Below, in pieces: positions 13,698 to 63,295 of a stretch of DNA of 64,000 bases; within the stretch, counting starts at the first letter, position 1; each line of letters opens with the position of its first letter. The notes below the pieces were generated by a model. The model saw only the letters and a program-made list of their open reading frames with translations. It ran no database searches and was not told the origin of the DNA. This DNA is from Hemerocallis citrina (Eukaryota; Streptophyta; Magnoliopsida; Asparagales; Asphodelaceae). The translations under genes and the position numbers were made by a program. The DNA is taken from contig CM030363.1 in NCBI GenBank assembly GCA_017893485.1, positions 84,683,230-84,747,229 on the forward strand, read 5' to 3'.

Positions 13698-13719
13698 CGT
13701 CAGTTGTATGCAACTGACG
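13698..13719 (+). promoter_or_regulatory. Conserved LTR hairpin
   Basis: CGTCAGTTG-TATG-CAACTGACG is a perfect 9-bp stem with a 4-base loop, followed by TGCCCACAGT. It lies about 240 bp before the LTR end, as in element A. Confidence 0.7.
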
Positions 13720-14458
13720 TGCCCACAGTTTCTATGCAGGATAAAGTGGATGACAAGATTAAAGAATAAATGTTGCTTAAAGAAATGTTCAAATTGTTAT
13801 TTAATTCATGTGTCATGTTGTAATTTATAATTCTGCTGCGTTGATGTAAAATATTGTTGTATTAAAGTTTTTAATTTCTTGTAAAATTGTACGAAGTGAA
13901 GTGTAAAGATCCTGTGGAACTTTGAATTCAGACTTATTTGGAATTCGGGGTGTTACACACGTTGCTTGCACTTCGTCATACTAGTCACAAGGGGTAGGTT
14001 TTGCATGGCGAAGGACCGAACCCTATAAAGAGGAGAAAACAATTAACATCATGCATTCAGAAACTATGTTGAATAAGCGACATAACTATCTAGACAAACA
14101 CTGCATTAGAAGAAAATCTTGAAGTTTGATTGCACTGTAGTATAATAATCAGTTGTTTTCACCAGTTAGTCGTCTATGCTCACTTATACTATTGCGTGAT
14201 TGTATGTTCTCATTTATATTAATTCTTAATTACTTGTATATTGAAAGACTACTACATGATTGTAGTCATCCTTCAGAGTATTCAGAATACAATCACTTAC
14301 TCTCGATATCTTATCACTAAAACATCCAAAAAAACGAAACCTTTATTAAGGTCTATTAGTTATAAAGCACCGATCTAGGCAATTAAATCCCTAGTTGGGT
14401 TGAGGCCCAGCTTAACCACTCATAAACTCAACCCGGACTTATCGATGTCCAAACCCGG

Positions 14459-22500: not shown

Positions 22501-25500
22501 TTAATAAATATAGTGGGCTTAAAAAGGACAATTAGGCTTTTAAAGAGAATAATTTTAGAAAAATAAAGAGAACAATTACGATATGAAAATATTTCATACG
22601 AGAAATTATACCAATGAAATCATACGTGCACAACACATAAAAATCACAAAATTTCATAAATCAATTGTAACCCCTGTTTTTCCAAAAATGTATTTTTTGT
22701 GTATTTTCGGTATTTAAAAATTTTTGCAATTTTTTTTCCCGGTTTTCAAATTCTTTTGTCCAGATGTGTAATTGACCCTTCTAGTAAAATCTGTTTTCGA
22801 TCAATTATTTTATTTGTAATTATTTTATATGATTTTTATTTGGTAATACAATTCTTATTATTTCTTTTATTATTACTCTTATTTTTTCTGTTTCTGTTAT
22901 TATTATTAGTAATTTTATTATTTTTATCATTTTCTTATTATTATTATTGTTATTAGTATTATTTTTATTATTGATATTTTGATTGGTTATTAAAAATCCA
23001 CTTCTATTTGCAAATTGTATTTGTAATTACTTCAAATAAATACTATAGTGTAATGTGAATTACATTTTATTATATATCATATTTTTATTGGGTATTTTTA
23101 ATTCTATTGGATTTCTCTTATTTTTTAAAAACCCCAAACACAATATCCAATCAACTAACCAATACCCTATTCTTTAACCCAATTACCCAAAACCCATTCC
23201 CTGTTTATACCCCAAACCCACCTATCTTCCCAATTCCAGCCCAGACCCGTTACCCGTTACCTTTCCCCAACCCGTAACCCAACTCACCTAACCCTACAGC
23301 CAACCCTAATTTCCATTACCCTACTCCTATATAACCCATGCGCCTGTTCGTCTACCCCTCCCCTAGCCGCTTCGCCTTCTCCCACCCGCCGCCTTCTCAT
23401 CCTCTGCCATCGTTCAGTCACGACACCAGGCCGAACCTCCAACCTTCCCTGTTTCCTTCGCACCCACGACCGCCGCCCCGTCTCCTGCCATGCTCCTCGA
23501 CGCCGCCAGCCAGCCAACCAGCCAGCCAGCCCACAGCGCGCTCCCCGCGTGTGTCGTCCCCTTGCCATTGTTCTTGCCGTTGTTCTTGGCCACTTGATTA
23601 TTGGTGTGCGTGCCTTTGGGTTATTCATAGTTCGTTCTTGGTTCGTGATTCTTCGTCGTGCAATCATGATTGTGTGGTTCCCGTTCTTGGTTTGTAGTGA
23701 TTCGTGTTCGTCGTTCGATTGTGTTCGTTGCCGGGAATCCGTTCCTGTTATTCTTATTTGGAATCGTTTTATCGTCGGTTAAGGCAAGTAACTTGTACTT
23801 ATATTCTTTTGTATGATACAAGTCAAAAATACTGCTTATACTGCAGTTGGGTTCTAAAAACAATTCGTGTGAAACCCCTTGTTGATATTGTTTCTATAGT
23901 GATTTGACCATAGTTGCCTTACGACACCATATTGACATGAATTAACTTAGATTTTACTCGTTCTTGATTTGATCATGTATGTGGGATTTTTGTGAGAAAT
24001 TGAGTATTTGTTGAGATCCATGTGATAGACTTGTTTTAGATATGTTAATTACTATATTTCATGATGTTTGGACACTTGGTAGACTCGATTTCATATTTGG
24101 TTGCGTTTGGAACAAGTTTCGTTAGATCTATATTGATTTTTGTTTTTGAGAAAAATCTGTGTTTTGCCGCTATTCTGTCTTGATCAAGACCATATTAAGG
24201 TCAGAATCTTAATTTCAGTATAAAATATGATTTGTAGAGGATTTCATCTTCTTTCCAATCACTCTGACCTTGCTCGATTTCGTTTTCGTAGTGTGAGATA
24301 TGACTGTTTTTCTACAGAGGTGTAGATCTTTTTCAGATTTCGTTTCTTGGTGTTTTTGATGATTAAATTATTTTGATACTTGTGCTACACATATTATTTT
24401 GATCTAAAATTTTGGTAAGTATTTCTAAACTTGATTAGAGATTGCCCAGAATTTTGGTGGATTTTATTGATGAGTTTTATAACCGATTTCATGCTTGTTT
24501 ATGAAAGCTATACTTGCTGTATTTTGCTGTGATTCGTATTTTCACCCTGATTCCTTTTACTGTATGGAAAATATTTGTGAAATATAAAAGTTATCATATT
24601 CTATCTATTTTCATCTCCCCTTGGCGGATTTGGATTTCGTTCTACGGTTTGCGAGATATTTCAGTTTTCGTATAGCAGTGTTGGGAATTCCAGATTTGCA
24701 AAACTATCGTTTCCTAATGTTTTCTGATTTTCGTTGACTGATCTAACTTCACTGGAAAATTATGAAACCTTATATTTTGATACTAGACAGATAGGGGAAT
24801 ACCCCATATTTTTTGTGAATTTATTTATTGAGTTTTGATGCTTTTTTTTACTGTGAATTCGATTTTCTGATTTCTGTCTGAATGTGTTTTCTGTATTCAA
24901 ATCAGTTTTGAGCTATATTTTTGTGAATTAGTATGTGACTTATTTATATTCTCTGGATTCGGTTGGGAGTCTATTTTCTAGACGTTTTAAAGGATTCATA
25001 TTTGCATCTTTGTAACACTGGAAATCACTATTTTACTGCAATGTGGTCTTGCTATCCTGAACTTGAGATTTGGTTATTTCATTCTTTTATGTGTTATCTT
25101 GCACTCGTACATGTTTATTTTGCAACTTGAACTTATTACATGATCATTCCATGTTATTGTTGATATATTTAGCACACCTACATAATTTTTTGACATTAAT
25201 AATAAATAACCAAGCCGGAGTTTAAGGGAAAGATCTAATAGTGGATAATTCAGAAACGTGTACCCGGAAGGGGGCCATGTTTCCCATATTTGGAATTTGG
25301 TATATGATTTGCTTAATTTGGAATTAGGTATATGATTTGAATTATTTGGAATTTGGTATATGATTTGGATTATTTGGAATTTGGTATATGATTTGGTAAA
25401 TTTGGAATTTGGTATATGATTTGGATTACTTGTCCCTGAGTACGCTGCCCTCTATGGTCCACTATGAAATATAAAGCAAAACTGTTTGTTGTAGCAACCA

Positions 25501-26219
25501 TGTAGTAAAAGCTGGGATGCATGAAGTGCTACCTAGATAGTAATCACTACAGGACTTGATACATGATACTTGATACACAGTTACATGATACTTGATACTT
25601 GATCCATGTTTACATGATACTTGTTCACTTGACACTTGATATATGCTATATGATACTTGTTCACCTTACCATACTAGTTGTTTATTTTGACATCATGCTT
25701 ATTCCATGTTATTAGTTAGTTTTCCCCATGTACTTGTATCCTGCATTACAAGCGGCCCGTAACTTGCAATTGACGGGTACTTGTTTTCTCTTTTCCTCTT
25801 CCCTGCAATTGTTAAATTGCAGATTTTGGGGAACAGGTTCTAGACGGTATCGATGACATAAAGTATTAGTGCTGAATTTTATTATTATTATTTCTTGTAA
25901 CATGCTTGAACAATATTGTATTTTGATACTTGAATTTATTCTTGTATTTAGGCAATGTGACCCAGGATATTTGATTTATTCAGATCATGACTATTTGAGA
26001 TTTATATATTTGGATTCAAGTATTCTTGTTAATATTTTGGTTCATATGTGCATGTTGGTTGATACTTTTGCTTCCGACTCTGATGATTCTTGTGAATGTT
26101 GTAAAGATTCTTGAACAGCTTATGGATGATGAAAATCATTTGCTGGGCTTTTGTCGCGTATCCGTATTCCATATTCTCTTTTGGGAAGCGGGGCGTGACA
26201 TCAATTCTAGGGTGTTACA
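19508..26219 (-). repeat. 3' LTR of element A, interrupted
   Basis: The plus strand starts TGTAACACCTCGAATTCC and ends TCTAGGGTGTTACA. It matches the 5' LTR (31432-34634) along its length up to 22665. After the solo LTR it resumes for only 14 bp (26206-26219). GTCGACTG-type repeats lie at about 21005-21250 and a minisatellite at about 20085-20290. The hairpin near 19755 is degenerate in this copy. Confidence 0.9.
22666..26200 (+). mobile_element. Solo LTR, type-2 family (3.5 kb), nested in element A
   Basis: It runs TGTAACCCCTGTTTTTCC...GGGAAGCGGGGCGTGACA and is flanked by an exact 5-bp duplication, TCAAT (22661-22665 and 26201-26205). It interrupts the 3' LTR of A close to its start in the sense direction. 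There is a TATA box at about 23330 (CCTATATAACCC), a C-rich leader at 23340-23550, and a 28-bp minisatellite (TTTGGAATTTGGTATATGAT units, 25285-25425). No internal coding region is present. Frames inside it are compositional. Confidence 0.92.
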
Positions 26220-31431: not shown

Positions 31432-31681
31432 GTAACACCCCAAATTCCAAAACACACTGAATTCGAAGTTCCACAGGATCTTTACACTTCTTTCGTACAA
31501 TTTTACAAGGAAATAAAAACTTTTTGTTACATCAGAGTTTATACTTACATTACATATTCACTACGGAAGCAATTTTACAACAAATACATGAATTGAATTG
31601 TACAACACATGAACCATTCTTTAATCAGCATGCATTCTTTAGTCTTGTTAATCACCTTACCCTGCATAAAAACTGTGGGCG

Positions 31682-31703
31682 CGTCAGTTGCTTACAACTG
31701 ACG
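31682..31703 (-). promoter_or_regulatory. Conserved LTR hairpin
   Basis: CGTCAGTTG-CTTA-CAACTGACG is a perfect 9-bp stem. The 3' LTR copy (about 19753-19775) has lost pairing by substitutions. Confidence 0.65.
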
Positions 31704-32924
31704 AAATATTATACACGGCTATCCTCTCTATGCCGAAACAGCATAACGATTCTCAAATGCTTAAACAAACCACAAAATTGATCACAAATAGAACTACAAG
31801 GGACTATCCTATGGATGTCGTGTTGGGCGGTGCGCTTAGTCCTTAATGCAGTTATTTATATTAGACGACACTAATGCGCACTTGTTCAGATTTTATGCAT
31901 CCCATACTACATAGGTCTGAGGGCAAGCCCTTAACCGTTCTACATTTGGCAGGGTTAAAAATCTCGTCATGACTTAAACTACTACTGTAACTACGATAAG
32001 TATCCTAGATGTTCTATGAGTTACGAGTTCATGTCCAGACAGCTTGGAGGGAAATTCCACGTCATGTCACGACGCATCATGAAGAACTTATGGACAATTC
32101 AGTCCCCGTAATGGGACATGACACCACCTGCTTTACCAAACACCCCACGAGCATCGCCTATGGTACGGACTTCTAGAGACATATCCACGTCATGTCACGA
32201 CGCATCATGAAGATAGCCTGTGAATACCCTCACACGGTAGCTCCGAGTTCCTCATACTCGTGTTTTTCTCTTATTTTCATCACCTCTTCGCTATGTTTCT
32301 AATCCTTAGTTATTTGAATCATGAACAAAAATTAATTCTCTAGAGTTAGCCTTTCCACTATACTGGTCTTAATCATCTATTCGACATGACCCAATCTTGG
32401 TCTTTTCATCTCAAATTTTATTTCAACATATCTCTTTTCAATGCCGGTATGAGGCTTAACTATACTCTAGTTCTCAATTTCAATTCACAATCACAAAATC
32501 GAGTTTTCATAGTCATAAAGTCTTATTCATGATTAACTTTAATTTTCTTTTCATGTTCATAGCATTTGTATATTCACGCTAAAAATTCTTTCACAATTCA
32601 TCATAACATTCAATTTCACTTTCATGTACAAACTCATGCATAAACAAAAGAATTCATTTTTTCTAACTTGTCACATTCATAGCTCATTCAACCACCATGA
32701 AATTACTGTACTGTCATTTTATCAAAAATTTACACTCTTATTGCCAAAACTCATTTCAAAACACATTTAAACAAGGCATGTATTTTTCTTTATTCAAGGA
32801 CAATTTGAACTAATAAAAATAATAAGTTCTTGCTTGCCAAAAATAGTCTCAAATCCTTATTCATACTGGGCCACAGGTTATAGAAAGTTCTTTGACGAAA
32901 ATCCAGGTATTAGTTGAAACTTCA

Positions 32925-33175
32925 GGGCAGTTGACTGTTAGGACATGGACCGTCGGCTGTTCTGTGAGGATTTACAACTCGAAAATCAATGTTTAGGGTA
33001 GTCGACTGTCACAGTGTAGTCGGTCGAATGATCCGCAAGGGTTTGAACTCGAAAACAAATAATCAGGACGGTCGACTGTTTCAATATAACTGGTCAACTG
33101 TTCCACAAATATTTGAACACGAAAACAAATACTCAGAGCAGTCGACTGTTTCAATGTAATCGGTCGACTGATGCT
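32925..33175 (-). repeat. GTCGACTG palindrome cluster in the LTR
   Basis: Units of about 75 bp contain paired CAGTCGACTGTTTCAATATA and GGTCGACTG, followed by a TTTGAACTCGAAAACAAAT-like link. GTCGAC is self-complementary. The 3' LTR copy is at about 21005-21250, and an independent cluster is at 55747-56081 in another type-1 LTR. Confidence 0.75.
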
Positions 33176-34639
33176 ACTAGGTTTTTCAAATTCCAAAAAT
33201 GTTTTTAGTTCTTTTTCTTCTCTTTTTGAGTCAAAAAATCTCCAGATTTCAAAATGTATAAGATTACAGCAAGTCGGTATATTTATAGCCATTATTGACT
33301 AATGAAACACGCGTTTTTGATCTTATTTTATGTTCTATGTCCATAATTTCAACATTGGGAACAAATCATAGTTGTACACATTTTGAAATATAAATTTTTA
33401 CAAAAATATTTCATTCCTTTTTTTTCATTTATTAATCCATCACATTAACTTAGAGAACATCAAAAATTTCCTTTCTTGCTACAATGAGATCACTCACAAT
33501 TAACCAAATCAATTTCACATGAAGCATTCAATTTTGTCTCATATATATAGATTTTCTTCACACAACATGGTTCTTTAATATCTAGCATGGCAAAACATGA
33601 TATCTTCTAGCATTTTAACTCATAATCTATCAACTAGCAATCACTTCAACACACATCTTCTAAATTACCAATTCATCTATACATAAGCAACCACAGGCCA
33701 ATTTCACTTAAGTTTTCGTTAACAATTCTATCAAAACATTCCTAGCATGGTATCCAGCTTTAGAAGCATGAGAAACACCCGCCTTATATGGAAAGAAAAA
33801 TCCAAAGAACTTCTAGAGAATCTCCTACAACGAAAACAAGGCCTTCTCTTCCTAGATCAACCGCCAAGTTGTGCCTCTCCTTATAATGATGCAAGCAACC
33901 CGAGCCTCCCTCTTCTTGATCCTTGAAAATGCCGGCCTCCTCCTTGGTTGAAGAACACAATAGCACACAATCTCACAACTCCTCAATTTTTTGCCTCACT
34001 AAAATTACTTCTCTTTTCTTTTCTTTCTACTCTTTTCTTTCAAAAATTCTAAGTGTGAGAATGAAGAGTATAGGGAGGGTTATTTATACAATATTTTAGG
34101 ATGAATGCAGGGTTAGGATTAGATCCAATGGTTAGAGATCAATGGTCTAGATGAACTAGGGAGTAATGAAAACTACCCATGATGAACAACCACCTCTTCA
34201 CTACTTCCATCACTCCCACTCCTCCATCTACAATCGGGCCTATGGGGAAAAGTGTGCAATGCACACCCTAGTGCTTGCACGTGCCACCTAGTGTCCCCAT
34301 TTACAAATTTGTTCATGTGACAAATTTAATTGTCCATGAAATGAGTCTACACTACAAGTTAGACCATTTCAAAAGAGAATTAAAGTAAATTGGCTCACTA
34401 ATGGGACAAACTAACCATGGGCTCAAAATAATTAAATAATTAATAAATATAGTGGGCTTAAAAAGGACAATTAGGCCTAGATTTAAATTAGGCTTTTAAA
34501 GAGAATAATTTAGAAAAATAAAGAGAACAATTACGATATAAAAATATTTCATACGAGAAATTATACCAATGAAATCATACGTGCACAACAAGTAAAAATC
34601 ACAAAATCTCATAAATCAATTCTAGGGTGTTACACATAT

Positions 34640-42072: not shown

Positions 42073-42962
42073 GGACTTTTTTTCCGAAATAGGTCACTTT
42101 TGGAAACTAATTCCCAAAATATGCCACTTTCAAAACTAATTTTCAAAATAACTAACGCAATACCCAACTGCAGCCTCTTTGTTTTTGAGGCCGCAGTTCA
42201 CAACTGCAGCCTAAGTTTATATTATATATATTTGACTAATAGGCTCGGGGACTTGGAAAAAATTGCCCAAGTGTAATGTGAAAAATAGGAGGCCGCAGTT
42301 GGGTATTGTGTCCTCGAAACTACATAGGCCGCTGTACCGAACTGCGGCCTCTTCAATTTCGTGGTCGCAGTTTACAACTGTGGCCTAAGCATATATCATA
42401 CATATTTGGCTAATAAGCTCGGAGATTTGAAAAAAAATTGCCCAAGTGTAAAATGTGAAATTTTTTGGCTAATAGGCTCGAAACAACATAGGTCGCAGTA
42501 CCGAACTACGGCCTCTTCGATTTCGTGGCCACAGTTGTCAGTTCACAACTGCGGCCTAAGCATATATCATTCATATTTGGCTAATAGGTTTGGAGAATAA
42601 AAGGTCACAGTCGATAATACATAGGCCACAGTTATATGGTCGATAAGGTCCAGTTCTTAAAACCTTGTAATACCAATTCGACCATATAACTGAGGCTGCA
42701 GTTGTGAATTGCGGCCTCTGTAGTATCGAGGCCGTAATACCAACTCTGGCCTCCTATTTTTTGCATGGAACTTTTTTTTTCAATTCTTCGAGCCTATTAG
42801 CCAAATATGTATAATATATATACTTAGGCCACAGTTATGAACTGCGGCATCGGAATCAAAGAGGTCACAGGGGGGTACTGCGTTGGTCTATTTTGGAAAT
42901 TAGTTTTGAAAGTGGCCTATTTTGGGAATTAGTTTTAAAAAGTGTCCTATTTTAGGGAAAAG
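42073..42962. mobile_element. Foldback element FB2 (long inverted repeat, GGCCGCAGTT cores)
   Basis: The left end (GAAATAGGTCACTTTTGGAA, ...CCCAAAATATGCCACTTTCA, AAACTAATTTTCAAAATA) returns inverted at the right end (TATTTTGGAAATTAGTTTTG, AAAGTGGCCTATTTTGGGAA, ...AAAGTGTCCTATTTTAGGG). The direct repeat TTGTTTTTAC flanks it (9-10 bp), as for MULE-type insertions. Inside are repeated short palindromes such as GGCCGCAGTT-CAC-AACTGCAGCC (42189-42211). There is no coding sequence. Confidence 0.85.
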
Positions 42963-43448: not shown

Positions 43449-43734
43449 TGAGGTGTTTGAACCCTTTTTGAAGTTGAGATAAATCTTAAGTTGGAGATCG
43501 GAGGTAATGAATGTTAACCAAAGTTAGTATACTTGTAACTCCACTTAAAAGATGATTTTGGTTATCCCAATTTTGTTACTAGACAAGCCCAACAAGCCTA
43601 ATCCACGCATTGTATGTGTGGTGATACCAAATACATTTTCAACATGTTCTCAAGAAGATACAGTTTCCAAATAAAAGGTGTTTGTGCCCCGTATCCTACC
43701 ACCACTTTCTCTAATTCTTTTATACAAGTTTTTG
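43449..43734. other. Unassigned sequence before element F
   Basis: No gene, terminal repeat or known element is recognised. Together with 51298-51356 it forms the flanks of element F. Confidence 0.4.
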
Positions 43735-44147
43735 TGTCAGGAACAGGATTCCTGACTGAGCTAGATCTCGCCATTAATGGGAGAATTGAAGAACTAGGGT
43801 TAGAGAAGAGTAGATTTGGGGAAGAAACTTTAGTTGATTTTTATTGATAATCCAAAAAATTATTACAGGTTGGGATTTACAGGATGGAGCGGTGGCGGTT
43901 ACGCTACAGGACAACCGAATTACAAGACACGTGCAAAGCACACTATTTCTATCTGCCACAACTCTTCCCGCCACTACCCATCAAACTAAAAAGTGTGTAT
44001 CGCACGTAAAAACAAAAACATATACAAAGCTATAAACTGATTCTATGCAAAAACAAGCAGCAGGAGCAATGTCAGCGATGGGTCTCTTATTACTTCGACA
44101 CCTTGATGATCCTCCGATGGTTGCAGGTCACTCCGGCGTCCCTCACA
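43735..44147 (-). repeat. 3' LTR of element F
   Basis: It matches 50887-51297 along its length (GATTCCTGACTGAGCTAGAT, GAAACTTTAGTTGATTTTTA, AATTACAAGACACGTGCAA, GCGATGGGTCTCTTATTAC). The minus strand starts TGTGAGGGACGCC. Confidence 0.9.
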
Positions 44148-44166
44148 ACTCCACCCCCCCAGAAAC
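44148..44166 (-). other. Polypurine tract of element F
   Basis: The minus strand reads TTTCTGGGGGGGTGGAGT immediately before the 3' LTR. Confidence 0.65.
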
Positions 44167-44177
44167 GAACTTGCCCC

Positions 44178-44905
44178 AAGTTTGAAGCTAGGAATTTAAC
44201 TGCGGAGTTCATCCACATCCACTCAAGGAGCACAATCAATACCTGCATTTCTCCATTTTTCAAGCCACTCAATCCCCACTCTAATGTGTGTTTTGAACAC
44301 TCTCCTGTCCAATATAGTTCCAGGCTCATCCTGAGTATTATCAGTAGGAAAATTGCATCTCTGATACCCGCTTCCCAAGCTGCTGGAATGGGTGTTGCAC
44401 CTGTTCTACTCTTAAGAGATGCAATTTTCTTTTCCAGTAGGCTTCCCTTTAATTTCCGAGCCTCGTCTATTTCATCATTCAGTGATTCTACTAAAATAGT
44501 TGCCTTAATAACATACTCAGTTGTAACAACTGTTACTCTTCGAAGTTTGAAGCTAGGAATTTAACTGCGGAGTTCATCCACATCCACTCAAGGAGCACAA
44601 TCAATACCTAGATTTTGTCCATTTTTCAAGCCACTGAATCCCCACTCGAATGTGTGTTTTGAACAATCTCCTATCCAATATAGTTCCAGGCTTATCCTGA
44701 ATATTATCAGTAGGAAAATTGCATCTCTGATACTCGCTTCCCTAGCTGCTGGAATGGCTGTTGCACCTGTTCTACTCTTAAGAGATGCAATTTTCTTTTC
44801 CAGTAGGGGGCTTCCCTCTACTTTCCGAGCCTCATCTATTTCATCATTCAGTGATTCTGCTAAAATAGTTGCCTTAATAACATACTAAGTTGTAAGAATT
44901 GTTAC
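44178..44905 (-). pseudogene. Alanyl-tRNA synthetase C-terminal piece, tandemly duplicated
   Basis: Two copies of about 365 bp (44178-44542 and 44543-44905) lie head to tail. Each reads on the minus strand LNDEIDEARK-like sequence, then SLLEKKIASLKSRTGAT, IPAAWEAGIRDAIF in copy 1 (IPAARE-like in copy 2), as in the helical segment after the editing domain of plant AlaRS. The 3' half of each unit (RMSLELYWTGECSKHTLEWG) does not match AlaRS and is unrecognised. The upstream copy is in phase with the editing-domain fragment at 44907-45300. Confidence 0.65.
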
Positions 44906-44906
44906 T

Positions 44907-45300
44907 CTTCAAACTCCTTTAGCAATTCCCTCCTCAGACAGAAGTGCAAATGCTTCGGCATCTTGAGTGTTTGATATATGAATGCCTCCACAAAGTTCAG
45001 TTGAGTATGATAACAACTGTTTCTTATCTGGATCCACTAGCAGGTATTCAACCTTCCGACCAGCTGATATAATTCTCACAGGATCAAGAAATACTTCTCC
45101 AAACACAGCTCTTAACGCCGCAATCCACTTGGAAGCAGAAAGAGTCGCTTCACTAGTAGATACATCTAACTCTTTCTTAATTTGATTGGCCCACTCCTCA
45201 AGAAGTTCTTCCTCTTTCATCGTATTATCCACCATTTTCATCAAATTGTTGATCATCTGAGCTAAAGCCCATTTGGAGAATTATTTTCTTGGAAACCTTC
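44907..45300 (-). pseudogene. Alanyl-tRNA synthetase editing-domain fragment
   Basis: The frame reads [50 protein letters not shown], then [20 protein letters not shown] and SEEGIAKGV. The family motif is CGGTHxxxT, which helps bind zinc and clear mischarged tRNA(Ala); here Thr is Ile. The match spans several hundred bases without an intron, so it was probably copied from spliced RNA. It ends upstream at non-AlaRS sequence near 45260-45300. Confidence 0.82.
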
Positions 45301-45425
45301 AACCCAAATATGAATTCCTGGGTGCAAGAGAGCTTGCATAAGCTTCCCCAATGGAAAAATTATGTTTTAATAGACCCATAACCAAACTCATATGCGCCAA
45401 GGTCGGAGTTTGGATTTCCTTAAGT

Positions 45426-45738
45426 TAGGGGTGTAAAATGAACAGGACGGTCCGTCGTCCATCAGAGTCCGGCTCGAGAAATGGCCCGACCGTGGACCGT
45501 CCGAACTGTTATACGAATCGAACTTGAACAAATTATTAGGTCCGATGTTTTACCAAGATCGAGCCGGACATAAGTCCGTCTGAGTATTATTACGGTCCGA
45601 TGCTTTACTGAACCGAGTCCGGACTATAAATTTTTTTCCAACCTTGACCGAGCCGGACATAAGCCCATCCGAGTAGAATTTCGTTCCAAGCTTGAACATA
45701 TGGCAGTTTGATCATGTCCGGTCCGATTTACAGCCCTA
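45426..45738. mobile_element. hAT-like MITE (TAGGGGTGTAAA ends)
   Basis: The 313-bp element starts TAGGGGTGTAAAATGAACAG and ends TCCGATTTACAGCCCTA, a near-perfect terminal inverted repeat. GTCCGGCTCG- and GAGCCGGACATAAG-like motifs recur inside. Flanks CCTTAAGT and CCTCTGGT match at 5 of 8 positions, so the duplication is only partly kept. It sits between two captured gene fragments of element F. Confidence 0.75.
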
Positions 45739-45739
45739 C

Positions 45740-46040
45740 CTCTGGTGCTCGCATCAAAGTATCAATTCCATATCTAGCATTTGAAGGAACTCTTGAGTGA
45801 GTTTGATGTGCATTCAAAACAGAATTGTAATGTGAAGGTAAAATCTTAATAGTGGTGTCCATAAACTCTTTTCCAAAATCTAGAGCCACAAGTTTTGGCT
45901 CCTCAATTTCAGAGTTATTTGAATCCATAGTCAAAACACCCTCAGTAGTTACTTTATTCACCCCAAAGTTTGATGCTTCACTTGCACACTTAAGCCTTGG
46001 AACAATATAATATCCCTGCAGCAACCCTTCAACTTTACTT
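45740..46040 (-). pseudogene. Unrecognised captured fragment in element F
   Basis: An open frame reads LQGYYIVPRLKCASEASNFG, SEIEEPKLVALDFGKEFMDT, TIKILPSHYNSVLNAHQTHS and RVPSNARYGIDTLM. Composition and length look like true protein sequence and the strand is that of the neighbouring captured genes. I do not recognise the family. It is either a fourth captured gene or a part of one of the others that I cannot place. Confidence 0.5.
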
Positions 46041-46074
46041 TCCCAAACAATAAAATGATCCCCTTAAACCCATG

Positions 46075-46521
46075 ATAGCATACACAGCTATTTCTATAGC
46101 AGTAATCAAGATGCTACCTTGTGCATTCAATGCCTGAGTATTCTTCAAAAAATGTTGCTCATTAGCAATCATAATCTCAAACCCAGAAGTCAAAAGTATA
46201 GTTTGAAACTTAAGAACAGATTCATAAAAGATGATGTTGAATACACCATCAAATCTAATCGTAGCCTCTGTATTCGAGTGTATTATCTCAAATCCTTCCC
46301 TATTTGATCCTCCACCTAATAATGGCACCAATACATATTCTGTAGGGATATCAAGCCACTGCTGAATCATAGAAGCCCAATGTAATTACGGAAAGATGGA
46401 GTAATAACAAGAACAGAACATGAGTAAGAGATGCATTCTGTAAAAACAATGGTCTGTAGTGTTTTCCAACGTTTATCTCATCACCTAGAAGCACTCTCCC
46501 ACCATGCTGCAATAATAACCA
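46075..46521 (-). pseudogene. SMARCAL1-like SNF2 helicase fragment
   Basis: It reads LLLQHGGRVLLGDEINVGK (family: LLQHGGRxLLADEMGLGK, the Walker A region), VLVITPSFRN, then after a frameshift ASMIQQWLDIP, LLGGGSNREGFEIIHSNTEA, TIRFDGVFNII, and SGFEIMIANEQHFLKNTQAL (family VIADESHFLKN, the DEAH-type box). This is the N-terminal ATPase lobe of the SMARCAL1/ZRANB3-like annealing helicases of plants. Both nucleotide-binding boxes are damaged. Intron-free joining suggests an mRNA origin. It is fused directly to the EBP1-like piece upstream. Confidence 0.82.
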
Positions 46522-46785
46522 AACTCCTTCAACTCTTTTGCAATCAGATGCAGCTGGAACCTTTTGGATAACTTTAGTTACATTCCTAATCTTCTTCCCC
46601 CGACTCACAAGTCTTAAATTAACCTCAGAAGCTGCGTTTGCAGCTGCAATCTCATCAGCAGCCCTCCCAGCGACTGTAACTCCCTGAAGAACATGAGTGC
46701 ATGCCACAGTAGGGAAAACAACATCGTTCTCGATCTTTTTCTTTGCATTATTGTGCACATATGTATCACCCGGTAAAGGCTGCAA
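46522..46785 (-). pseudogene. EBP1/PA2G4-like fragment
   Basis: It reads NNAKKKIENDVVFPT, then THVLQGVTVAGRAADEIAAA, NAASEVNLRLVSRGKKIRNV and TKVIQKVPAASDCKRVEGV. This matches plant ERBB3-binding-protein-1 homologues, catalytically inactive M24 peptidase-fold proteins in ribosome biogenesis and growth control. An internal stretch between FPT and THVLQ (normally about 45 residues) is deleted. The sequence crosses what should be several exon joins with no intron. At residue 88 it switches to the helicase piece. Confidence 0.82.
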
Positions 46786-46795
46786 GAAACTTGTT

Positions 46796-49700
46796 TGTAA
46801 CCCCTATTTTTCTGTTTTGGATTTTATGATATTATATTTTCTTCCTTCTTGATTATTATATTCGAATCTCTTTTAATAATAAATCTTGCTTTTCTTTGGG
46901 CTCATTTATACTCTTTTGATCATTCTGTACTCTTTTGGCTTGAATCCTGCATTTTTGGCACACTAAGAAATTTACTATTTTGTGTTTTGGGTTTATATTG
47001 TTCCGTTATATTCATATCTCATTGATTTCTATTCATTTTTCTCTTTTTTGGATCCTAAACCCATGCCTTTAACCCGTTAACCTGCAACCCAAAACCCAAC
47101 ATCTATTATCATATATAAATACCCCTAAACCCTAATTAATTAATACCCTAATAATCTTTCTCTCTCTTTCCTTAATCCCGCCGCTCTCATCTATCTAAAC
47201 TCCCAACTCTCTCTCATCCTCTGTTGCACCGAGAAACCATTGACCGCTCGACCTTCCTCTACGGCCTTGCCCTCCGCCAGCACCCGCACCAACCTTGCCA
47301 CCCTCATCCTTCCGTCTTCGACCACCGCTGCCTTCCCCGTTCGACTGAGTGCATCCACAATCCCCTTGGCCGAAACCCATCCCCAATAGCCATCTTCATC
47401 CTACAACAAAGAGCACTGTCCTCCTTACCATCTCCACCCCAGCACCGCCCCATCCCTGTTCGCCTTCGCCCTCGACTGCAACCACCGTAAAACTTCCTCA
47501 CATGTTCCCTCCACTGCTCCTCTATTTCTGAAGGAAACAGAGCACCTCCGAACCCATCGCCGAGCACCCCCTCGGAGACCATCCCTCGCCCCTGTCGACC
47601 ATCATCGGGACCCCCGCCTTCCTCCGCTGTGCCAGTCACCGCGCACTGGCCGTCGTCGAGCCGCAGTCGTTGTCGCTCTCTCTCTCCCCTTGTCGTTGTG
47701 TGCTGTTCAGGAGAGAATGGGGGATTTACTATTTTGGAAGGATCTGCTGATTGCTTTTGCTGTAAGATCTTGCACGCTATTTGCACGTGCGTCGTTCGTG
47801 TTTCGTCGCCTGGGATTCTCATCCAGTTATTCTTTATATTCGAATTTATCGTCTAACAGGCAAGTCTCTTCTTGAACCCCTCTATTGTTTGTGTTCAAGA
47901 ATTTGTTGATCCCAGCAAGTAGATCTTTTATCATATTGTTATACTATTTAAATTCCATTGAGTATATCGAGGGTTTACACGAGCTAACTCAAGATATTCT
48001 TGACATCGTGCCTATATCTTTGATCCAAATCCTAGTCCCTATTGCACATTGCATATGGATGTTATGCATGAAAAATAACTAGATCCATGTTATAGAATTA
48101 TTTGATGAATTGAATATGTTTTATTGGATTTGAATTGATGAATTGATTACCATGATTATAAATTGCATCATAAATCTAGAAAACTGCATGTTAATCATCA
48201 AATAGCACTTTGTTTATTTCTTTATCATGAATTATATGCTTGTATGATGTAATTATTACCTATTCATACTAAATTATTTTCTGGCGTGCTGTTTACTTCT
48301 TTTTGTATCAGAGTTTCGACCCTGTTGCTATAGTAATTTGAAAGAACTCTATAAATATGAATTTTATCCCCATGTGTCTATTTTCCAGAACTTTGACGGA
48401 ATTGAATTCTTAGTTATAGTCTGTCAGATATCAGTCTTTTAGTACTGCTAGGTTAAGTTTTCCAGATTCACAATTTCATGCGTATCACCTTGATTTATTA
48501 GTAAACACAACATGTTAACAGTAAAATAAAAATATAAAAAAAATTTGACTGAAACTAGACATGTGTAGGAATCACCCTGAATTTTTTTAGATTTAATTGA
48601 TGAGTTTTCTGACCTAAAACATATATGTGAACTCAATCTATAACCTGCTGCCTGAAAATCTTAAAAGAATAGGAATTTCGACCTAGTTTCTGTAATATTT
48701 ATATGTCGTGTGTATATTCAATGGAACCGGCAGAGAATCTAGTTTCTAGAACTTCTAACGGATCTTTTCTGTAGTAGCGGGAATATCTGTTTTTGTACAG
48801 TAACGTCTTGCTGTCCAGATTGTATGATTTGTGTTGATTTAATATATTTGCTTCTTGCTTTGTCTGTAAAGAGTAGAATTAGTCACACCTAGCATGATAC
48901 AACCTTGAAACCTTCTTGCGTTCTCACATAGGATGAAATAAAATATTAATAAGCCGGGGTATTATGGGTTGACTTGGTAGTGAACAATCAGAAACTGTAC
49001 TCGGTAAAGGCCTTCTTGCTTGCATGGTTTATTACATGGAAGGTGGAGAAATGCTTGTCATTGTGTGATCATGCTATCATGATATCTTGTCATCTTGTTA
49101 CCGAGTATACGATCCGTGAATTTACCATCCGTCTAAAGCGTTCACTGTTTGCATGTGCCGAACCTATGGAATGGGAAGCAGTAGTACATGTACTAGATAG
49201 GTTAATAAAATAATTAATAACTTGCATTTGACATTTCATGCTTGATCCCGTATACAGTCATCAATATAGAACTTAAATTGACATTATTAATTAATGCATG
49301 ATTAAATATAGACTTTTGACATTATCGCCAATCTTTGTCTTTGTCCTTGACCTTGATCCCGTCCCTTATTTTTGATGTACCATGTTTCCTATCATTCTCT
49401 GTTTTCCTCTACTTGCTGTCCATGACTTGCTTTAAGGAAATTATTTTCTCTCTTTTTAGATCACAAGTTTATAGGTACTGAAGGAACATTATCAGAAGGA
49501 GTTGGTGAGCAACGATTCTAGAAGATGGAGCCAAAGATTTCACTACTTGAATTATTTTATGCTATATATCTTTCCTTCGAACTTTGTTATGGATATTATA
49601 CATTGTTTTGGGCTTTTGTCTCAGAGTTTGTTTTTCCAAATATTGAATATTATGTTGGATATTATTATTTGGATTATTTCATCTATTATTGAAGTTGATA

Positions 49701-49851
49701 TTTATTTATATGATTATATTTCCTTGCGTGGTTGTGATTGTTATTCATATTGTTGAGTTGGACTGGTACAACTTATGGATGGTGTTTACATCATTTACTA
49801 GGCCTTCGTTACGTACTCGTATTCCTGTATTTTGGAAAGCGGGGCATGACA
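46796..49851 (+). mobile_element. Solo LTR, type-2 family (3.1 kb), nested in element F
   Basis: It runs TGTAACCCCTATTTTTCTG...TTTTGGAAAGCGGGGCATGACA. Flanks TTGTT (46791-46795) and TTGAT (49852-49856) form a one-mismatch duplication. There is a TATA box (CATATATAAATACCCC) near 47112 and a C-rich leader at 47160-47700, then the AT-rich body and GTCATTGTGTGATCATG. Frames on both strands in the leader (for example 47304-47822) are compositional. No internal region. Confidence 0.85.
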
Positions 49852-49856
49852 TTGAT

Positions 49857-50741
49857 TGAACGGCTCGCATGGGAGGGGCCATCCATTAAGCACTAGTTTG
49901 TCATGATTAGGTATAAGAACTTCCAATTTCATCTTCATGTCATTTCGTCAAACATACAATAGATGTTGAAGATAAGGCAGTTATACCTTTGAAGCATTAT
50001 CACAAACACTTGGTAGGTGATCAACAGATGTTGTTCAAGCTCTTTTAACTCCTTTTGCGGGTTCTTCATTGAGAAACTTGGTGTTGCCACTTTCAGTAGA
50101 CCTTTTAGGTTGAATTTCCTCTAGTTTCTCCACCTTAACTACCAATTCAACCACTCCAACACTCTCTACATTACCAAAAACAACAGCATCTTCATGAAGT
50201 CATTCTTCTCAAGAAATGTGCTCACCTCATTCTGATTCAATTCCGACAAAACTCCCCTGCAATCTTCAATTTCAGTAGGGGCAAATCGGATAATCAACTC
50301 TTTCAAGAATACTGGCCACGAGATGTCATCAATGCAGGGTTTAATATGCCTATAATACCATAAAGTTGCGCTCCCACTTAAACCCAACCAAGCATATTTC
50401 CATTTCTCTGAATTCGGAATCTCATAAAATTCAAGGAAGTGTTTGACTCCACATATCCAATTTGTTGGATCTCCTTCTTTAAAATTTGGAAACTTCATCT
50501 CTTTAAAATTCGGAAACTTCATCTTAATTGGAGCTCCAAACATGCTTCCACTATCACCACACCCCTTCGAATTAACAGAGACGAGGTTAGTGTTAGTTAC
50601 CTCACTGATCAGAATCTGAGGAGGAGCGATCGGGTACAGACAAGGAGCAGGCGGTTGTGGATTTGGTTGTTGTAACATTGACATCATCCCATCTATTCTT
50701 GACGACTCTGCCCCAAATTTCTCTTCCATTTTGATCGACAT
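49857..50741 (-). pseudogene. Element F gag remnant
   Basis: The frame reads KMEEKFGAESSRIDGMMSML near the N-terminus, then KFPNFKEGDPTNWICGVKHF, LEFYEIPNSEKWKYAWLGLS and ISWPVFLKELIIRFAPTEIE. This is the DPxxWI...LGFxxLWYY...F..F pattern of Retrotrans_gag proteins. A short exact duplication (MKFPNFKE twice) is present. Coding-like text continues below 50166 (KNPQKELKELEQHL). No protease, RT or integrase follows; captured genes do. Confidence 0.75.
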
Positions 50742-50870
50742 GCCTCCAATTGTCCATTGAGGTAATCAAGCTGCTTCTCCATTGAATTCATCTATCGTTT
50801 CAACCATCGGATCTCCTCCTTCACGTTCGACGTGCCTCCGATGTCTCGCGATTCGCTGTCGGTGAAAATT

Positions 50871-50885
50871 GGCTCTAATACCACC
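50871..50885 (-). other. Primer binding site of element F
   Basis: The minus strand reads CCTGACA (LTR end), AAGG, then TGGTATTAGAGCC. This is one base from the initiator tRNA-Met site TGGTATCAGAGC. Confidence 0.75.
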
Positions 50886-50886
50886 T

Positions 50887-51297
50887 TGTCAGGGACTGGA
50901 TTCCTGACCGAGCTAGATCCACCATTAATGGGGGAGTTGAAGAACTAGGGTTAGAGAGAGAAGGTTTGGGGAAGAAACTTTAGTTGATTTTTATTGATAA
51001 TCCAAAAAATTATTAAAGGTTGGGATTTATAGGAGGGAGCGATGGCGGTTACGCTACAGGGCAACCGAATTACAAGACACGTGCAATGCACACTATTCCT
51101 ACCCGCCACAACTCTTTCTGCCACTACCCATTCAAACTAAAAGTGTGTATCACACGTAAAAACAAAAATAGATACAAAGCTATAAACTGCAACTGTGCAA
51201 TAGCAAGCAGCAACAACAATGTTAGCGATGGGTCTCTTATTACTCCGGCACCGTGATGATCCTCTGATGGTTGTAGGTCACTCCGGCATCCTTGACA
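50887..51297 (-). repeat. 5' LTR of element F
   Basis: Partner of 43735-44147. The minus strand runs TGTCAAGGATGCCGGAGTGA...CCAGTCCCTGACA. A TATA box (CCTATAAATC, 51024-51033) supports the minus orientation. Confidence 0.9.
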
Positions 51298-51356
51298 TTT
51301 TTCTACAACAACTTGCTGCATTTCGACAAACATGACATCTAAGGATAACAAAAACT

Positions 51357-51892
51357 AGCATTGGTATAGATACCTGAAACTCGAATCCGATTGGGACCCG
51401 ACCCGGACCCGGCATTGGACCGGAACCGACCCGGCCTATCCGGGTCCGGGCCTGGGTCCTAAAATGGGACCCGTTGTACTTTCAGGTACAGGTCCGGGTC
51501 CGTTCAAAAGAGACCCGACCAGGACCCGAACATGGACCCGTTAAAAAAAAACCCAAAAAATTAACATAAAAATAAATATTCTATCCTCATCCCTCACCAC
51601 CTTCCTCCTCAATTCTAAATCTTCCTCTTCCAAACTCAAAACTCATGCATTTTTCTTCTCTCCTATATTCTAAATCCTCCACTCGCCGCCTCCGCTCGCC
51701 GCTCACACTCCCGCTCCTACCCGAACGGGTAGGAATATTTTAATAGGACCCGGACCCAGAACCGGAACCGGTCCTCACGGGTCCGGGTCTGGGTCCAGGT
51801 CCAGGTCCAGGTCCAATTTTTGGACCCGTAGGGGACCTGGTCAAGGTTCGGGTAGTCAAAGACCCAGCCTGACCGGACCCGATACCAATGCT
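51357..51892. mobile_element. MITE-like element with GGGTCCGGGTC-rich arms
   Basis: It starts AGCATTGGTATAGATACC and ends GGACCCGATACCAATGCT, a terminal inverted repeat of about 11 bp. Next to it both arms are rich in GACCCG or CGGGTCC repeats in opposite orientations, with an AT-rich centre that includes a pyrimidine-rich stretch (51600-51720). The flanks (CAAAAACT, TAAAAAAA) are A-rich but not a clean duplication. Confidence 0.6.
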
Positions 51893-51976: not shown

Positions 51977-54512
51977 TGTCATGTCCCGCTCCCCAAAAAG
52001 AATACGGAATAAGGATACGCGACTCAACCCAGCGAATGATTTGCATCATCCATAAGCTGTTCAGGAATCTTTACAACATCTCACAAAATAATCAGAGTCG
52101 GAAGCAAAAGAGTCAACCACACATGCTTAATTGAATTAATAAACCAAAAGAATTTACTTGAAACAAAACACATTAAGCTCAAATAAATCAGAATCTGGAC
52201 AAGATAAAACCCTGGGTCACATCGCCCAAAATACAAAGTAATCATCCAAGTACTCAAAATACATTATTCAAAGCAACAATAATAGTAATACTAATAAGCA
52301 AGAATCCAACACTAATATCTCATTTTGCCATTGTCGTCGGGCAGTTGACCATCCTGATCTGCAATTATAATTGCAGGAGAAGGAAAGAGAAAACAAGGCA
52401 TCATCAATGCAAGTTACTGGCCACTTATAATGTAGGATACAAGTATATGGGAAAGGTAAACAAATAGCATGGAATAATACATCAACAGTAATAACTAGCA
52501 TGAATCAGTAAAACAAAGTCAACTAGCATGATATACTAACAGTACAAATGAATGTGTCAAGTATAGTGTCATATGGCAACTAACAGTGTCCAGTAACAGT
52601 AAGCTCAGTATATCAGTGTAACAGTATAACAGTATCAGTCCAAAAGTATCAGTCTAACAGTATCAGTCTTATGTTCTTACAGTCTTATTTGTATTACTAG
52701 CTAGGTAGCACTTCATGTGCCCCAAAATATAACACATTGTTGTTACAACAAACAGTTTCGCTTTTAGATTTCATAGTGGACCATAATAGGGCAGTGTACT
52801 CATGTATCAGTAACAGTAGCAGTAGTAGTAAAAATAACAGTAACAGTAGCAGTAAAAGTAACAGTAACAGTAACAGTAACAGTAACAGTATGGAACACTA
52901 GCTCCCTTCCAAGTGCACGTTTCCATATTTTCCACTACTAGATCTTCCCTTAAAAAATCCCGGCTTGATAACTTTTATTATGGTTATCAACAGACATGAT
53001 AGTGAATGAAACAGTGTCAAACTAACATGATGCAATCATTATTAGGTTCAGGGAAACAAATAAACATGCATAGATGATATACGGTCACATAAACGAGCAA
53101 AATAGTGTATGTTCATATTCAGGACAGCATGACAGTACAGTACTAAAACAGTGATTCCCATTATTACAGAAATCCAATCTGAATCTGTTGAAGAATCTGA
53201 AAAATAGACTTCCACATGAATCCAACGATTATATATAAGTCATATAGTATTTCACAAAATCATAACTCAAAACTGATTCGAATCCAGAAAATACGTTCAG
53301 CCAGAAATCAGTAAATCATATTCTTGGATAGAAAAACAGCATTATAACTCCTCAAATAAATCCATGAATAATCTAGAGAAATCCCCTATATGTCTATTAT
53401 CAGAATATAAAGTTTCATAATATTCCAGTAAAATTAGTTCAGTAAAAAAAATCAGAAAATATCAAGAAACGATAGTTTGGCAAATCTGGAATTCTCAACA
53501 CTGCTGTACGAAAACTTTAATATCTCGCAAACCGTGAAAAAAAATCCAAATCTGTTAAAGGGAGATGAAAATAGACAAAACAAGCTAATCTTCATATTTC
53601 ATAAATATTTTCCATAAAGTAAAAGGAAATAGGGTGAAAATACGATTCTTTACAAAACAGCGAGCAAAATACAACAAGTATAGCTTTTATAAACAAGCAT
53701 GAAACGACGTATAAAACTCATCAATAAAATTCGCCAAAATTCTGGGTAATCCCTAAATAGATATAGAAAGACTGTACAAAGGTTCAGATGAAAATAATAT
53801 AATTAGGACTAGTATCAAAATAGTTTAATCATCAAAATCATCATGAAACACAATCTGGAAATAGAATACACCTCTGTAGTAAAATAGTCATAACTCACTC
53901 ATACGAAAACGAAATTGATCAAGGTCTGAGAGTTTGGAAAGAAGACAGATTTCTCTACAATTCATGTCTAATAAAAAAATTAAGAATTCTGACCTTAATA
54001 GGGTCTAAAATATAAATCAAAACTGATCTTCGACAAATACAGATTTTCTCTTAAAAACAAAACCAACATAAACCACACGAAACTTGTTCTAATTACAATC
54101 AAACATGGTATAGAATCTACTAAGTGTCCAAACATCATGAAATAGAGTATATAACATATTCACAACCATCATATCACATGGACCTCATCAAACACATAAT
54201 TTCACCTAATTATCTCACCTATATGAATAGATCAAGAACGGTCAAACCTAGTTGTTTTCATGTCGATTTTTGTGTTGTGAGGCAACTATGGTCAAATAGC
54301 ACTATAGAGATAAAACCCATCAAAAATAACACACACACGAGTTGTCTCTAGAACCCAACTATACTATAAGCGGTATTTTCTGACTTGTGTCATACAAAAG
54401 AATTTGAGTACATGTTACTTGCCTTAACCGAAGACGAAAATAAAGAACACCAAGAATAACGGGAACGAATTCCCGGGCAATGAACACAACAAGCAAAACC
54501 CACAAGCGCAAA
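51977..54512 (-). mobile_element. Type-2 LTR, truncated by the next insertion
   Basis: The plus strand starts TGTCATGTCCCGCTCCCCAA and follows the order of the solo LTR at 14459-17870 (AATACGG, CCAGCGAATGATT, GTGGACCAT, TCCCGGCTTG, ..., TTACTTGCCTTAACCGAAGA). It stops at 54512, where a type-1 LTR begins; its upstream (sense 5') part should lie beyond the Harbinger-like element. A (CAGTAA)n/(CAGTAT)n repeat fills 52600-52895. Confidence 0.8.
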
Positions 54513-57184: not shown

Positions 57185-58975
57185 CTGAAACTGTTTCCTA
57201 AAATGTGTTTTTTGAAAACTGTTTTCTGAAAATGAGAGTGTAAAAACTGTTTGGTAATAAATTTTTTCTGAGTACTGTTCTCTGAAAGCTGTTTTTCTGA
57301 AAAAGAGAGTTTAAAAGCTGTTCGGTTATATTTCTAGCTGAAAACTGCTATCTGAAAGCTGTTTTTGTGAAAAAGAGAGTTTAAAAGCTGTTCGGTTATA
57401 TTTCTAGCTGAAAACTGTTCTCTGAAAGCTGTTTTTCTGAAAAAGAGAGTTTAAAAGCTGTTCGGTTATATTTCTAGCTGAAAACTGTTATCTGAAAGCT
57501 GTTTTTCTGAAAAAGAGTGTTTAAAAGCTGTTCGGTTATATTTTTAGCTGAAAACTATTATCTGAAAGCTGTTTTTCTGAAAAAGAGTGTTTAAAAGCTG
57601 TTCGGTTATGTTTCTAGCTGAAAACTGTTATCTGAAAGCTGTTTTTCTGAAAGACAGAGTTTAAAAGCTGTTCGGTTATATTTCTAGCTGAAAACTGTTA
57701 TCTGAAAGCTGTTTTTCTGAAAGACAGAGTTTAAAAGCTGTTCGGTTATATTTCTAGCTGAAAACTGCTATCTGAAAGCTGTTTTTGTGAAAATGAGAGT
57801 TTAAAAGCTGTTCGGTTATATTTCTAGCTGAAAACTGTTATCTGAAAGCTGTTTTTGTGAAAAAGAGAGTTTCAAAGCTGTTCGGTTATATTTCTAGCTG
57901 AAAACTGCTATCTGAAAGCTGTTTTTGTGAAAAAGAGAGTTTAAAAGCTGTTCGGTTATATTTCTGGCTGAAAACTGTTCTCTGAAAGCTGTTTTTCTGA
58001 AAAAGAGAGTTTAAAAGCTGTTCGGTTATATTTCTAGCTGAAAACTGTTCTCTGAAAGCTGTTTTTGTGAAAAAGAGAGTTTAAAAGCTATTCGGTTATA
58101 TTTCTAGCTGAAAACTGTTATCTGAAAGCTGTTTTTCTGAAAGACAGAGTTTAAAAGCTGTTCGGTTATATTTCTAGCTGAAAACTGTTATCTGAAAGCT
58201 GTTTTCGTGCAAAAGAGAGTTTAAAAGCTGTTCGGTTATATTTCTAGCTGAAAACTGTTCTCTGAAAGCTGTTTTTGTGAAAAAGAGAGTTTAAAAGCTG
58301 TTCGGTTATATTTCTAGCTGAAAACTGTTATCTGAAAGCTGTTTTTGTGGAAAAGAGAGTTCAAAAGCTATTCGGCTATATTTCCAGCTGAAAACTGTTA
58401 TCTGAAAGCTGTTTTTCTGAATAAGAGAGTTTCAAAGCTGTTCGGTTATATTTCTAGTTGAAAACTGTTATCTGAAAGCTGTTTTCGTGAAAAAGAGAGT
58501 TTAAAAGCTGTTCGGCTATATTTCCAGCTGAAAACTGTTATCTGAAAGCTGTTTTGCTGAAAGAGAGAGTTTAAAAGCTGTTCGGTTATATTTCTAGCTG
58601 AAAACTGTTATCTGAAAGCTGTTTTTCTGAAAAAAAGAGTTTAAAAGCTGTTCGATTATATTTCTAGCTGAAAACTGTTATCTAAAAGCTGTTTTGCTGA
58701 AAGAGAGAGTTTAAAAGCTGTTCGGTTATATTTCTAGCTGAAAACTGCTATCTGAAAGCTGTTTTGCTGAAAAAGAGAGTTTAAAAGTTGTTCAGTTATA
58801 TTTCTAGCTGAAAACTGCTATCTGAAAGCTGTTTTGCTGAAAGAGAGAGTTTAAAAGCTGTTCGGTTATATTTCTAGCTGAAAACTGCTATCTGAAAGCT
58901 GTTCTAGCTGAAAACTGTTATCTGAAAGCTGTTTGTAGCTGAAAACTGTTTTCTGAATTAGAGAGTGTAAAATGC
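57185..58975. repeat. 70-bp satellite next to the transposon end (about 22-23 units)
   Basis: AAAGAGAGTTTAAAAGCTGT recurs every 70 bp from 57301 to 58841 with no length change; only substitutions distinguish units. Each unit is TTCGGTTATATTTCTAGCTG, AAAACTGTTATCTGAAAGCT, GTTTTTCTGAAAAAGAGAGT, TTAAAAGCTG. CTGAAAACTGTT and CTGAAAGCTGTT are sub-repeats inside the unit. At the outer end (57185-57290) and the inner end (58890-58970) diverged partial units occur. Confidence 0.95.
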
Positions 58976-61925: not shown

Positions 61926-62392
61926 CAATATTCCAACAGCTAATTAGTGCCATAATGCATACATTTATATACTCCAAAAGATTTCATATTACAAATCTAT
62001 AATGATGATTGAAGTTACACTGGAGTTATGGTATGCTATAAACTGATGTTTGGTAGACTTTTGATATGTAAATGAGATCAAAAGTGAACCAAGTTTAAAT
62101 AAATCAAAAGTGAACCAAGTTTTCCTGTGCATCGATCATATATATACCCAATAACCTATCATTTCACAATATTTTCAACAGATTTAATCAATTAAATGAT
62201 GTGTAGATTACACTTTGTCCTACATCTTTGAAATCATATGCACACATCCATTTTCCCTGCCAAACAAAGTTAACAGCCATCTCTGATATCATCTCTCAAA
62301 TCATCAATGTTCACAATATCCTTTCTTTCTCACTGCATATACTAGCAAAAAAGGGCCATGTCTTACTCACTGCATAAATCAAAATACATCAA
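61926..62392. other. Unassigned AT-rich sequence
   Basis: No coding signal or terminal repeat is recognised. GATCAAAAGTGAACCAAGTT is duplicated within 62070-62125. Confidence 0.35.
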
Positions 62393-63295
62393 ATGCATCA
62401 TCACTTAAAACCAACGAGGAAAAGTGAAGCTCAGTTAGGATTACTACATCACAAGTAACTCCTACAAATCATTAAATAACTGATTCATAGTGTGCAACTT
62501 CAGAAACATAATCCATCTCATCATCACTTAAAACCAAAGGAGAAAAGTAAAGCTCAGTTCGGATTAATTCATCACAAGTGACTCCTACAATTCATTAAAT
62601 AAATGATTCATAGTGTGCGACTTCAGAAACATAATCCATCTCATCATCACTTAGAACCAGCGAGGAAAAATAAACAACAGTTCGGATTAATTCATCACAA
62701 GTCACTCCTACAATTCATTAAATAAATGATTCATAGTGTGCAACTTCAGAAACATAATCCAAATACATCATCACTTAAAACCAAAGGAGAAAAGTAAAGC
62801 TCAGTTCGGATTAATTCATCACAAGTGACTCCTACAATTCATTAAATAAATGATTCATAGTGTGCGACTTCAGAAACATAATCCATCTCATCATCACTTA
62901 GAACCAGCGAGGAAAAATAAACAACAGTTCGGATTAATTCATCACAAGTCACTCCTACAATTCATTAAATAAATGATTCATAGTGTGCAACTTCAGAAAC
63001 ATAATCCAAATACATCATCACTTAAAACCAACGAGGAAGAATAAAGCTCAGTTCGGATTAATTCATCACAAGTGACTCCTACAATTCATTAAATAAATGA
63101 TTCATAGTGTGCAACTTCAGAAACATAATCCAAATACATCATCACTTAAAACCAACGAGGAAAAATAAAGCTCAGTTCGGATTAATTCATCACAAGTCAC
63201 TCCTACAATTCATTAAATAAATGATTCATAGTGTGCAACTTCAGAAACATAATCCAAATACATCATTACTTAAAACCAACGAGGAAAAATAATGT
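62393..63295. repeat. ~123-bp satellite, seven units with an alternating pattern
   Basis: TAGTGTGCAACTTCAGAAAC (or GCGACTT) recurs at 62489, 62611, 62734, 62858, 62981, 63105 and 63229, spacing 122-124 bp. Units also hold CATCATCACTTAAAACCAA, CAGTTCGGATTAATTCATCA, CAAGTGACTCCTACAATTCA and TTAAATAAATGATTCA. Units 2 and 4 share AAAGGAGAAAAGTAAAGCTC with GCGACT. Units 3 and 5 share AGAACCAGCGAGGAAAAATA with AACAACAG. So a two-unit block was duplicated. Confidence 0.9.

Follow-up and report, generated by a model that had tools for sequence, protein, structure and literature searches.

The DNA analyzed here is a window of 64,000 nucleotides from Hemerocallis citrina (assembly GCA_017893485.1, contig CM030363.1, positions 84,683,230 to 84,747,229 of the forward strand), in which positions 43735 to 51297 are a single element bounded by long terminal repeats (LTRs) and lying on the minus strand (Table 1). 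An initial annotation had already treated this span as one unit with an LTR pair, and repeats of 411 to 413 bp that are 89% identical (89.4% by BLAST) bear this out. Read from 51297 down to 43735, an orientation given by the primer site, the purine tract and the weak flanking duplication, the element opens with the 5' LTR and primer site, followed by what remains of gag, the captured block and lastly the purine tract with the 3' LTR. The target-site duplication matches at four of five positions within a T-run. The primer site agrees at 12 of 13 positions with the initiator-Met primer site of plants. No further copy of the LTR was found within the 64-kb window.

Table 1. Features of the LTR element and its insertions, in the order of the element's own strand
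Feature	Coordinates	Strand	Remarks
5' LTR	50887..51297	-	411 bp; pairs with 43735-44147
Primer binding site	50871..50883	-	TGGTATTAGAGCC; 3 nt from the 5' LTR end CCTGACA at 50887
gag remnant	50169..50765	-	199 codons
Stretch between gag and nested LTR	49857..50165	-	Scanned pieces gave no Pfam match
Nested insertion, probable solo LTR	46796..49851	-	3056 bp; TG...CA ends; flanks TTGTT/TTGAT
EBP1/PA2G4 fragment	46522..46749	-	About residues 65-184 of P0128, residues 82-122 missing
SMARCAL1/CHR18-type helicase fragment	46071..46530	-	About residues 173-324 of P0059
Open stretch A	45739..46063	-	Pfam, PDB and protein searches all without a match
hAT-like MITE insert	45426..45738	.	313 bp; ends TAGGGGTGTAAA/TTTACAGCCCTA; 8-base flanks alike at 5/8
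Stretch before the AlaRS fragment	45185..45425	-	41-aa part of it: no Pfam match
Alanyl-tRNA synthetase (AlaRS) fragment	44717..45184	-	Residues 690-844 of P0001 (Typha)
Tandem duplication	44178..44913	.	366 bp; units 44178-44542 and 44543-44913
Candidate integrase/chromodomain tail	44175..44405	-	ILDRR...EWLEKW...DELRS.IPSF; adjoins the purine tract
Polypurine tract	44148..44161	-	TGGGGGGGTGGAGT; abuts the 3' LTR
3' LTR	43735..44147	-	413 bp
Possible target-site duplication	43730..43734		TTTTG; partner TTTTT at 51298-51302; weak, 4/5 within a T-run

The captured block contains pieces of three unrelated genes, those of EBP1/PA2G4, a SMARCAL1/CHR18-type helicase and AlaRS, all in the same sense as gag, and comparison with plant proteins upholds the initial assignment of both their identity and their sense. 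The EBP1 piece matched 115 proteins at E ≤ 0.001 in the protein search (best 7.9e-16), of which those with specific source names are mostly ERBB-3 binding protein 1, and it matched human PA2G4 with an E of 1.1e-5. The AlaRS piece is 69% identical to the Typha protein over 156 columns, with two stops, and was recovered by tblastn (4.6e-54) and by the Pfam family tRNA_SAD (1.6e-9); the PDB search returned no AlaRS for it. The helicase piece matched P0067 by tblastn (1.5e-37); the colinear part spans about 150 residues, contains two frame shifts and has no insertion over 2 residues. The protein search behind the counts for these last two pieces listed 120 of 241 matches, with candidates scored in part, and at least 108 AlaRS relatives and at least 12 helicase relatives are among the matches listed. 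Since plant proteins match the pieces in this way, the identities are not a matter of chance. The identity of the helicase piece rests on these plant relatives; counting against it are the main piece's Pfam SNF2 score of only E 0.11 and a PDB search that returned no helicase.

Open stretch A corresponds to the unrecognised piece of the initial annotation. It gave no match at E ≤ 1 among 20 candidates in a protein search confined to parents of about 247 to 786 aa, longer or shorter parents lying outside that search, and it has no other copy in the window. Stretch A is probably a piece of a fourth transcript.

Most of the enzyme genes that such an element would encode have been lost. The gag remnant resembles a gag-like stretch at 30568-30299 of the same window (29% identity, E 4e-4). 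Reverse transcriptase, RNase H, protease and integrase families gave no Pfam match in 21 window pieces scanned (9 + 2 + 10), a scan that covered pieces of about 40 aa upward and the nested 3-kb LTR at its edges only; this agrees with the earlier description of the element as lacking pol. The stretch at 44405-44175 resembles a chromodomain integrase end, a candidate identity that Pfam does not confirm; the window holds no copy of it except its tandem duplicate. The element is probably Ty3/gypsy-like; its gag match is weak, and no pol family, for which that superfamily has the order PR-RT-RH-IN, occurs among the 21 scanned pieces.

The junction between the EBP1 and helicase pieces is free of spacer. 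The end of the one and the start of the other use the same codons, KRVEGVWLLLQHGG, which encode a shared (Glu)-Gly-Val, and the two pieces share one frame across the join. At the corresponding site, VEGV is present in 102 of 115 EBP1 relatives, and the motif Q(R/Q)(E/D)G(V/I)RF is common to all 12 helicase relatives, of which 3 have E and 10 have GV. Among 200,000 random joins of P0128 with P0067, three or more shared residues arose in 0.13% and two or more in 1.1%, the latter being the fairer figure if the helicase parent had D. Shared residues at a spacer-free join fit template switching, which would have taken place at this point during reverse transcription, much as first proposed for the joining of the pieces. 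Template switching at microsimilarities between retrotransposon RNA and cellular RNA is described in a review (PMC5408686).

The claim that the fragments contain no introns was compared with exon edges inferred from the gene models of other plants. The AlaRS of Colocasia (P0114) is longer by 16 residues, which follow position 755 and are read here as kept intron sequence, although other readings are possible. The cassava AlaRS (P0108) keeps to its family as far as LLEK near 818 and then runs into other sequence, terminating nine residues later, and the sunflower EBP1 (P0230) is without residues 168-226, which places an edge at E167/A168. None of these three inferred edges (AlaRS 755 and ~818, EBP1 E167/A168) carries an insertion in the fragments, in keeping with the claim. 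Because the three edges are crossed without insertion, spliced templates are likely, though unproven, and the pieces likely derive from spliced mRNAs. Three AlaRS proteins without residues 672 to 692 or 695 (P0109, P0119 and P0120) were not counted as marking an edge, given that their positions disagree; the edge they imply would fall within the AlaRS piece, right by its start. An EBP1 protein without residues 151-161 (P0235) was likewise not counted.

The present span of the element includes three later changes that are absent from the initial annotation. The 3056-bp nested insertion is presumably a solo LTR, its kind and orientation being taken from its ends. The insert resembling a miniature inverted-repeat transposable element (MITE), which we assign to hAT by resemblance, splits stretch A from the piece at 45185-45425, and the tandem duplication repeats the AlaRS end together with the candidate tail. 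All three postdate the element, which measured about 3.8 kb once they are subtracted. The two units of the duplication differ by a Kimura two-parameter (K2P) distance of 0.057, below the 0.1195 of the LTR pair, whose 411 aligned sites show 29 transitions, 16 transversions and 2 single-base gaps. At substitution rates that we assume to be 1.3e-8 or 7e-9 per site and year, the LTR distance corresponds to 4.6 or 8.5 million years, respectively, an insertion age of several million years. Today, the captured pieces look like decaying pseudogenes.

The divergence of the fragments suggests that capture is older than the insertion at 43735-51297. In raw amino-acid differences, their own branches measure 0.259 for AlaRS (154 columns), 0.291 for the helicase (133) and 0.314 for EBP1 (80), against 0.018 to 0.192 for the compared genes. 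Neutral drift simulated at half the LTR divergence gives 0.113, a value that all three fragments exceed, EBP1 by most; this excess, which points to capture before insertion, may partly reflect frame-shift neighbourhoods and gene conversion between the LTRs. In an AlaRS tree, the fragment branch reaches 0.59 against a median of 0.083, with a placement that lacks support, and three of the five nearest rows are monocots. The excess over drift in the three-point comparison is smaller than this tree branch, and all that we claim from it is that capture probably came before insertion. If capture did predate insertion, at least one round of copying took place as a chimera.

Taken together, these data lead us to regard it as very probable that a non-autonomous LTR retrotransposon acquired internal pieces of spliced EBP1, helicase and AlaRS mRNAs, and probably of a fourth transcript, which replaced almost the whole of pol. 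By the most likely route, host mRNAs would have been co-packaged into virus-like particles of an autonomous relative, where the reverse transcriptase would have switched templates at short identities in one or several rounds. Since the chimera retained both LTRs and the purine tract, along with the primer site and the start of gag, it would have stayed copyable, and may have been mobilised, in trans. Several observations weigh against this origin. At the one join where both parents are known, most helicase relatives have D rather than E. The EBP1 piece is without 41 parent residues (82-122); when exon skipping was considered as the cause, the same gap was found in none of the 108 relatives over 250 aa (of 115), and P0209 and P0222 are without residues 105-116 only. 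The exon edges are those suggested by irregular gene models in other plants rather than by the parent genes, and no pointer to an exon edge was found among the 12 helicase relatives. The Retrotrans_gag match of the gag remnant (E 0.0022) is under the curated Pfam cut-off, and the candidate integrase tail gave nothing in Pfam at E ≤ 10. Finally, the protein search revealed no second copy of the chimera, as none of the 115 EBP1 relatives matches the longer helicase piece (46385-46071) at E ≤ 0.1 and none contains QHGG, in a search that misses unannotated copies. An annotated 160-aa protein of Asparagus officinalis (P0234) is an EBP1-like piece as well, perhaps a pseudogene or a retrocopy of EBP1 that arose independently.

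The combination of several genes is a trait often seen in DNA transposons. In maize, captures by Helitrons and by other DNA transposons number 1194 and 462, compared with at least 189 by LTR elements (PMC2774510), and a helitron or Pack-MULE could have collected genomic pieces as a block that was then embedded in the LTR element. We consider this very unlikely, given that the pieces cross three inferred exon edges without insertion and all lie in sense with gag, and that no terminal inverted repeat surrounds the block. Inverted repeats were searched for, helitron ends were not; in 44178-46795 no exact inverted match exceeds 15 nt, although diverged ends could escape, and the longest, of 15 nt at 44714/44781, is near one end of the block with its arms only 67 nt apart. 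The apparent lack of introns would also suit processed pseudogenes of the long interspersed nuclear element (LINE) type, inserted independently and successively into one old LTR element, and other later insertions did occur there. That origin is highly improbable, however, as the EBP1 and helicase pieces share residues at a spacer-free join, both ends of all three identified pieces are internal to their genes, and the longest A-run on the element's strand in 44178-46795 is 7.

It is quite unlikely that the captured pieces form a hybrid open frame used by the element or the host, as in the Bs1 chimeric gene. The EBP1 and helicase pieces do lie in one frame, and so do stretch A and the AlaRS piece, though with stops in between, but the two AlaRS stops and two helicase frame shifts speak against such use. 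For 295 codons at nucleotide distances between 0.09 and 0.16, a neutral simulation yielded 2.4 to 4.1 new stops, so that the stop count is no sign of constraint, and since these codons were picked as open stretches the count is unfit as a test of it. A wider version of the favored origin, acquisition of spliced mRNA pieces by an LTR element, would be a heritable family of chimeras that, within one lineage and ahead of this insertion, united the host mRNAs of EBP1, the helicase, stretch A, the unassigned stretches and AlaRS, four or five in all, and was propagated as a multi-gene retro-vector. This appears unlikely to us; if true, such a set would exceed the three genes of Bs1.

Repeats also occur elsewhere in the window. 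Just past the 5' LTR, 51390-51870 is GGACCCG-rich with internal repeats, and just outside the other end of the element, 42080-42960 is a MITE-like structure in which repeats with GGCCGCAGTT-like cores, some inverted and some direct, are nested. Three related long repeats at 51977-54459, 14459-17012 and 23768-26205 are about 71 to 87% alike and possibly LTRs of one family; the copy at 51977-54459, beside the element, starts with TGTCATGTCCCGC. A direct 3.2-kb repeat pair (19509-22669 and 31432-34624, 93% identical) possibly represents the LTRs of a large element with one of the other long repeat copies inside it, and 12909-13956 is a partial reverse copy of the 3.2-kb repeat. Tandem arrays occur at 57206-58903 (70-bp unit, 24.3 copies, 93% matches) and at 62390-63292 (124-bp unit, 7.3 copies, a 247-bp period fitting too).

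Among the closest known systems is Bs1 of maize, a small element that has lost most of pol. The initial annotation had cited Bs1 as a case of single-gene transduction, but it carries segments of three host genes (PMC13317346, a 2026 review; PMC7264820), encoding a proton ATPase, a xylan endohydrolase and a beta-1,3-glucanase, and its chimeric gene is reported by the same review to have a hybrid open frame in use. Multi-gene chimeras are rare, as had been stated, yet the contrast drawn with Bs1 does not hold, Bs1 being multi-gene already. The Hemerocallis element is likewise an LTR element with fragments of several unrelated host genes. It differs in the genes concerned, in a probable fourth piece, in several later insertions and in showing no sign of a translated hybrid frame. 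A maize survey of 425 intact elements with gene fragments reported, "under the conditions employed", none that combined pieces of two or more standard nuclear genes (PMC2774510), a figure that must be an undercount because Bs1 itself is a maize element. Titles and the beginnings of abstracts, in a field where subscription papers were mostly outside reach, yielded no further multi-gene LTR element. LTR retrotransposons that have captured genes in maize, rice and sorghum likewise carry host gene fragments (PMC2774510, PMC3726574). The Veju terminal-repeat retrotransposon in miniature (TRIM) and BARE-2 are also chimeras, ascribed in the 2026 review to abnormal template switching (PMC13317346), but their partners are unknown DNA or another retroelement, whereas here they are several host mRNAs. 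A second case built from different genes would indicate that the serial switching of templates between host mRNAs was more than a lone accident, and the sequences at the joins allow this mechanism to be tested when sister copies are compared with parent mRNAs. The Hemerocallis element is a degenerate multi-gene transducing LTR element of the Bs1 kind, a kind that is known but rare.

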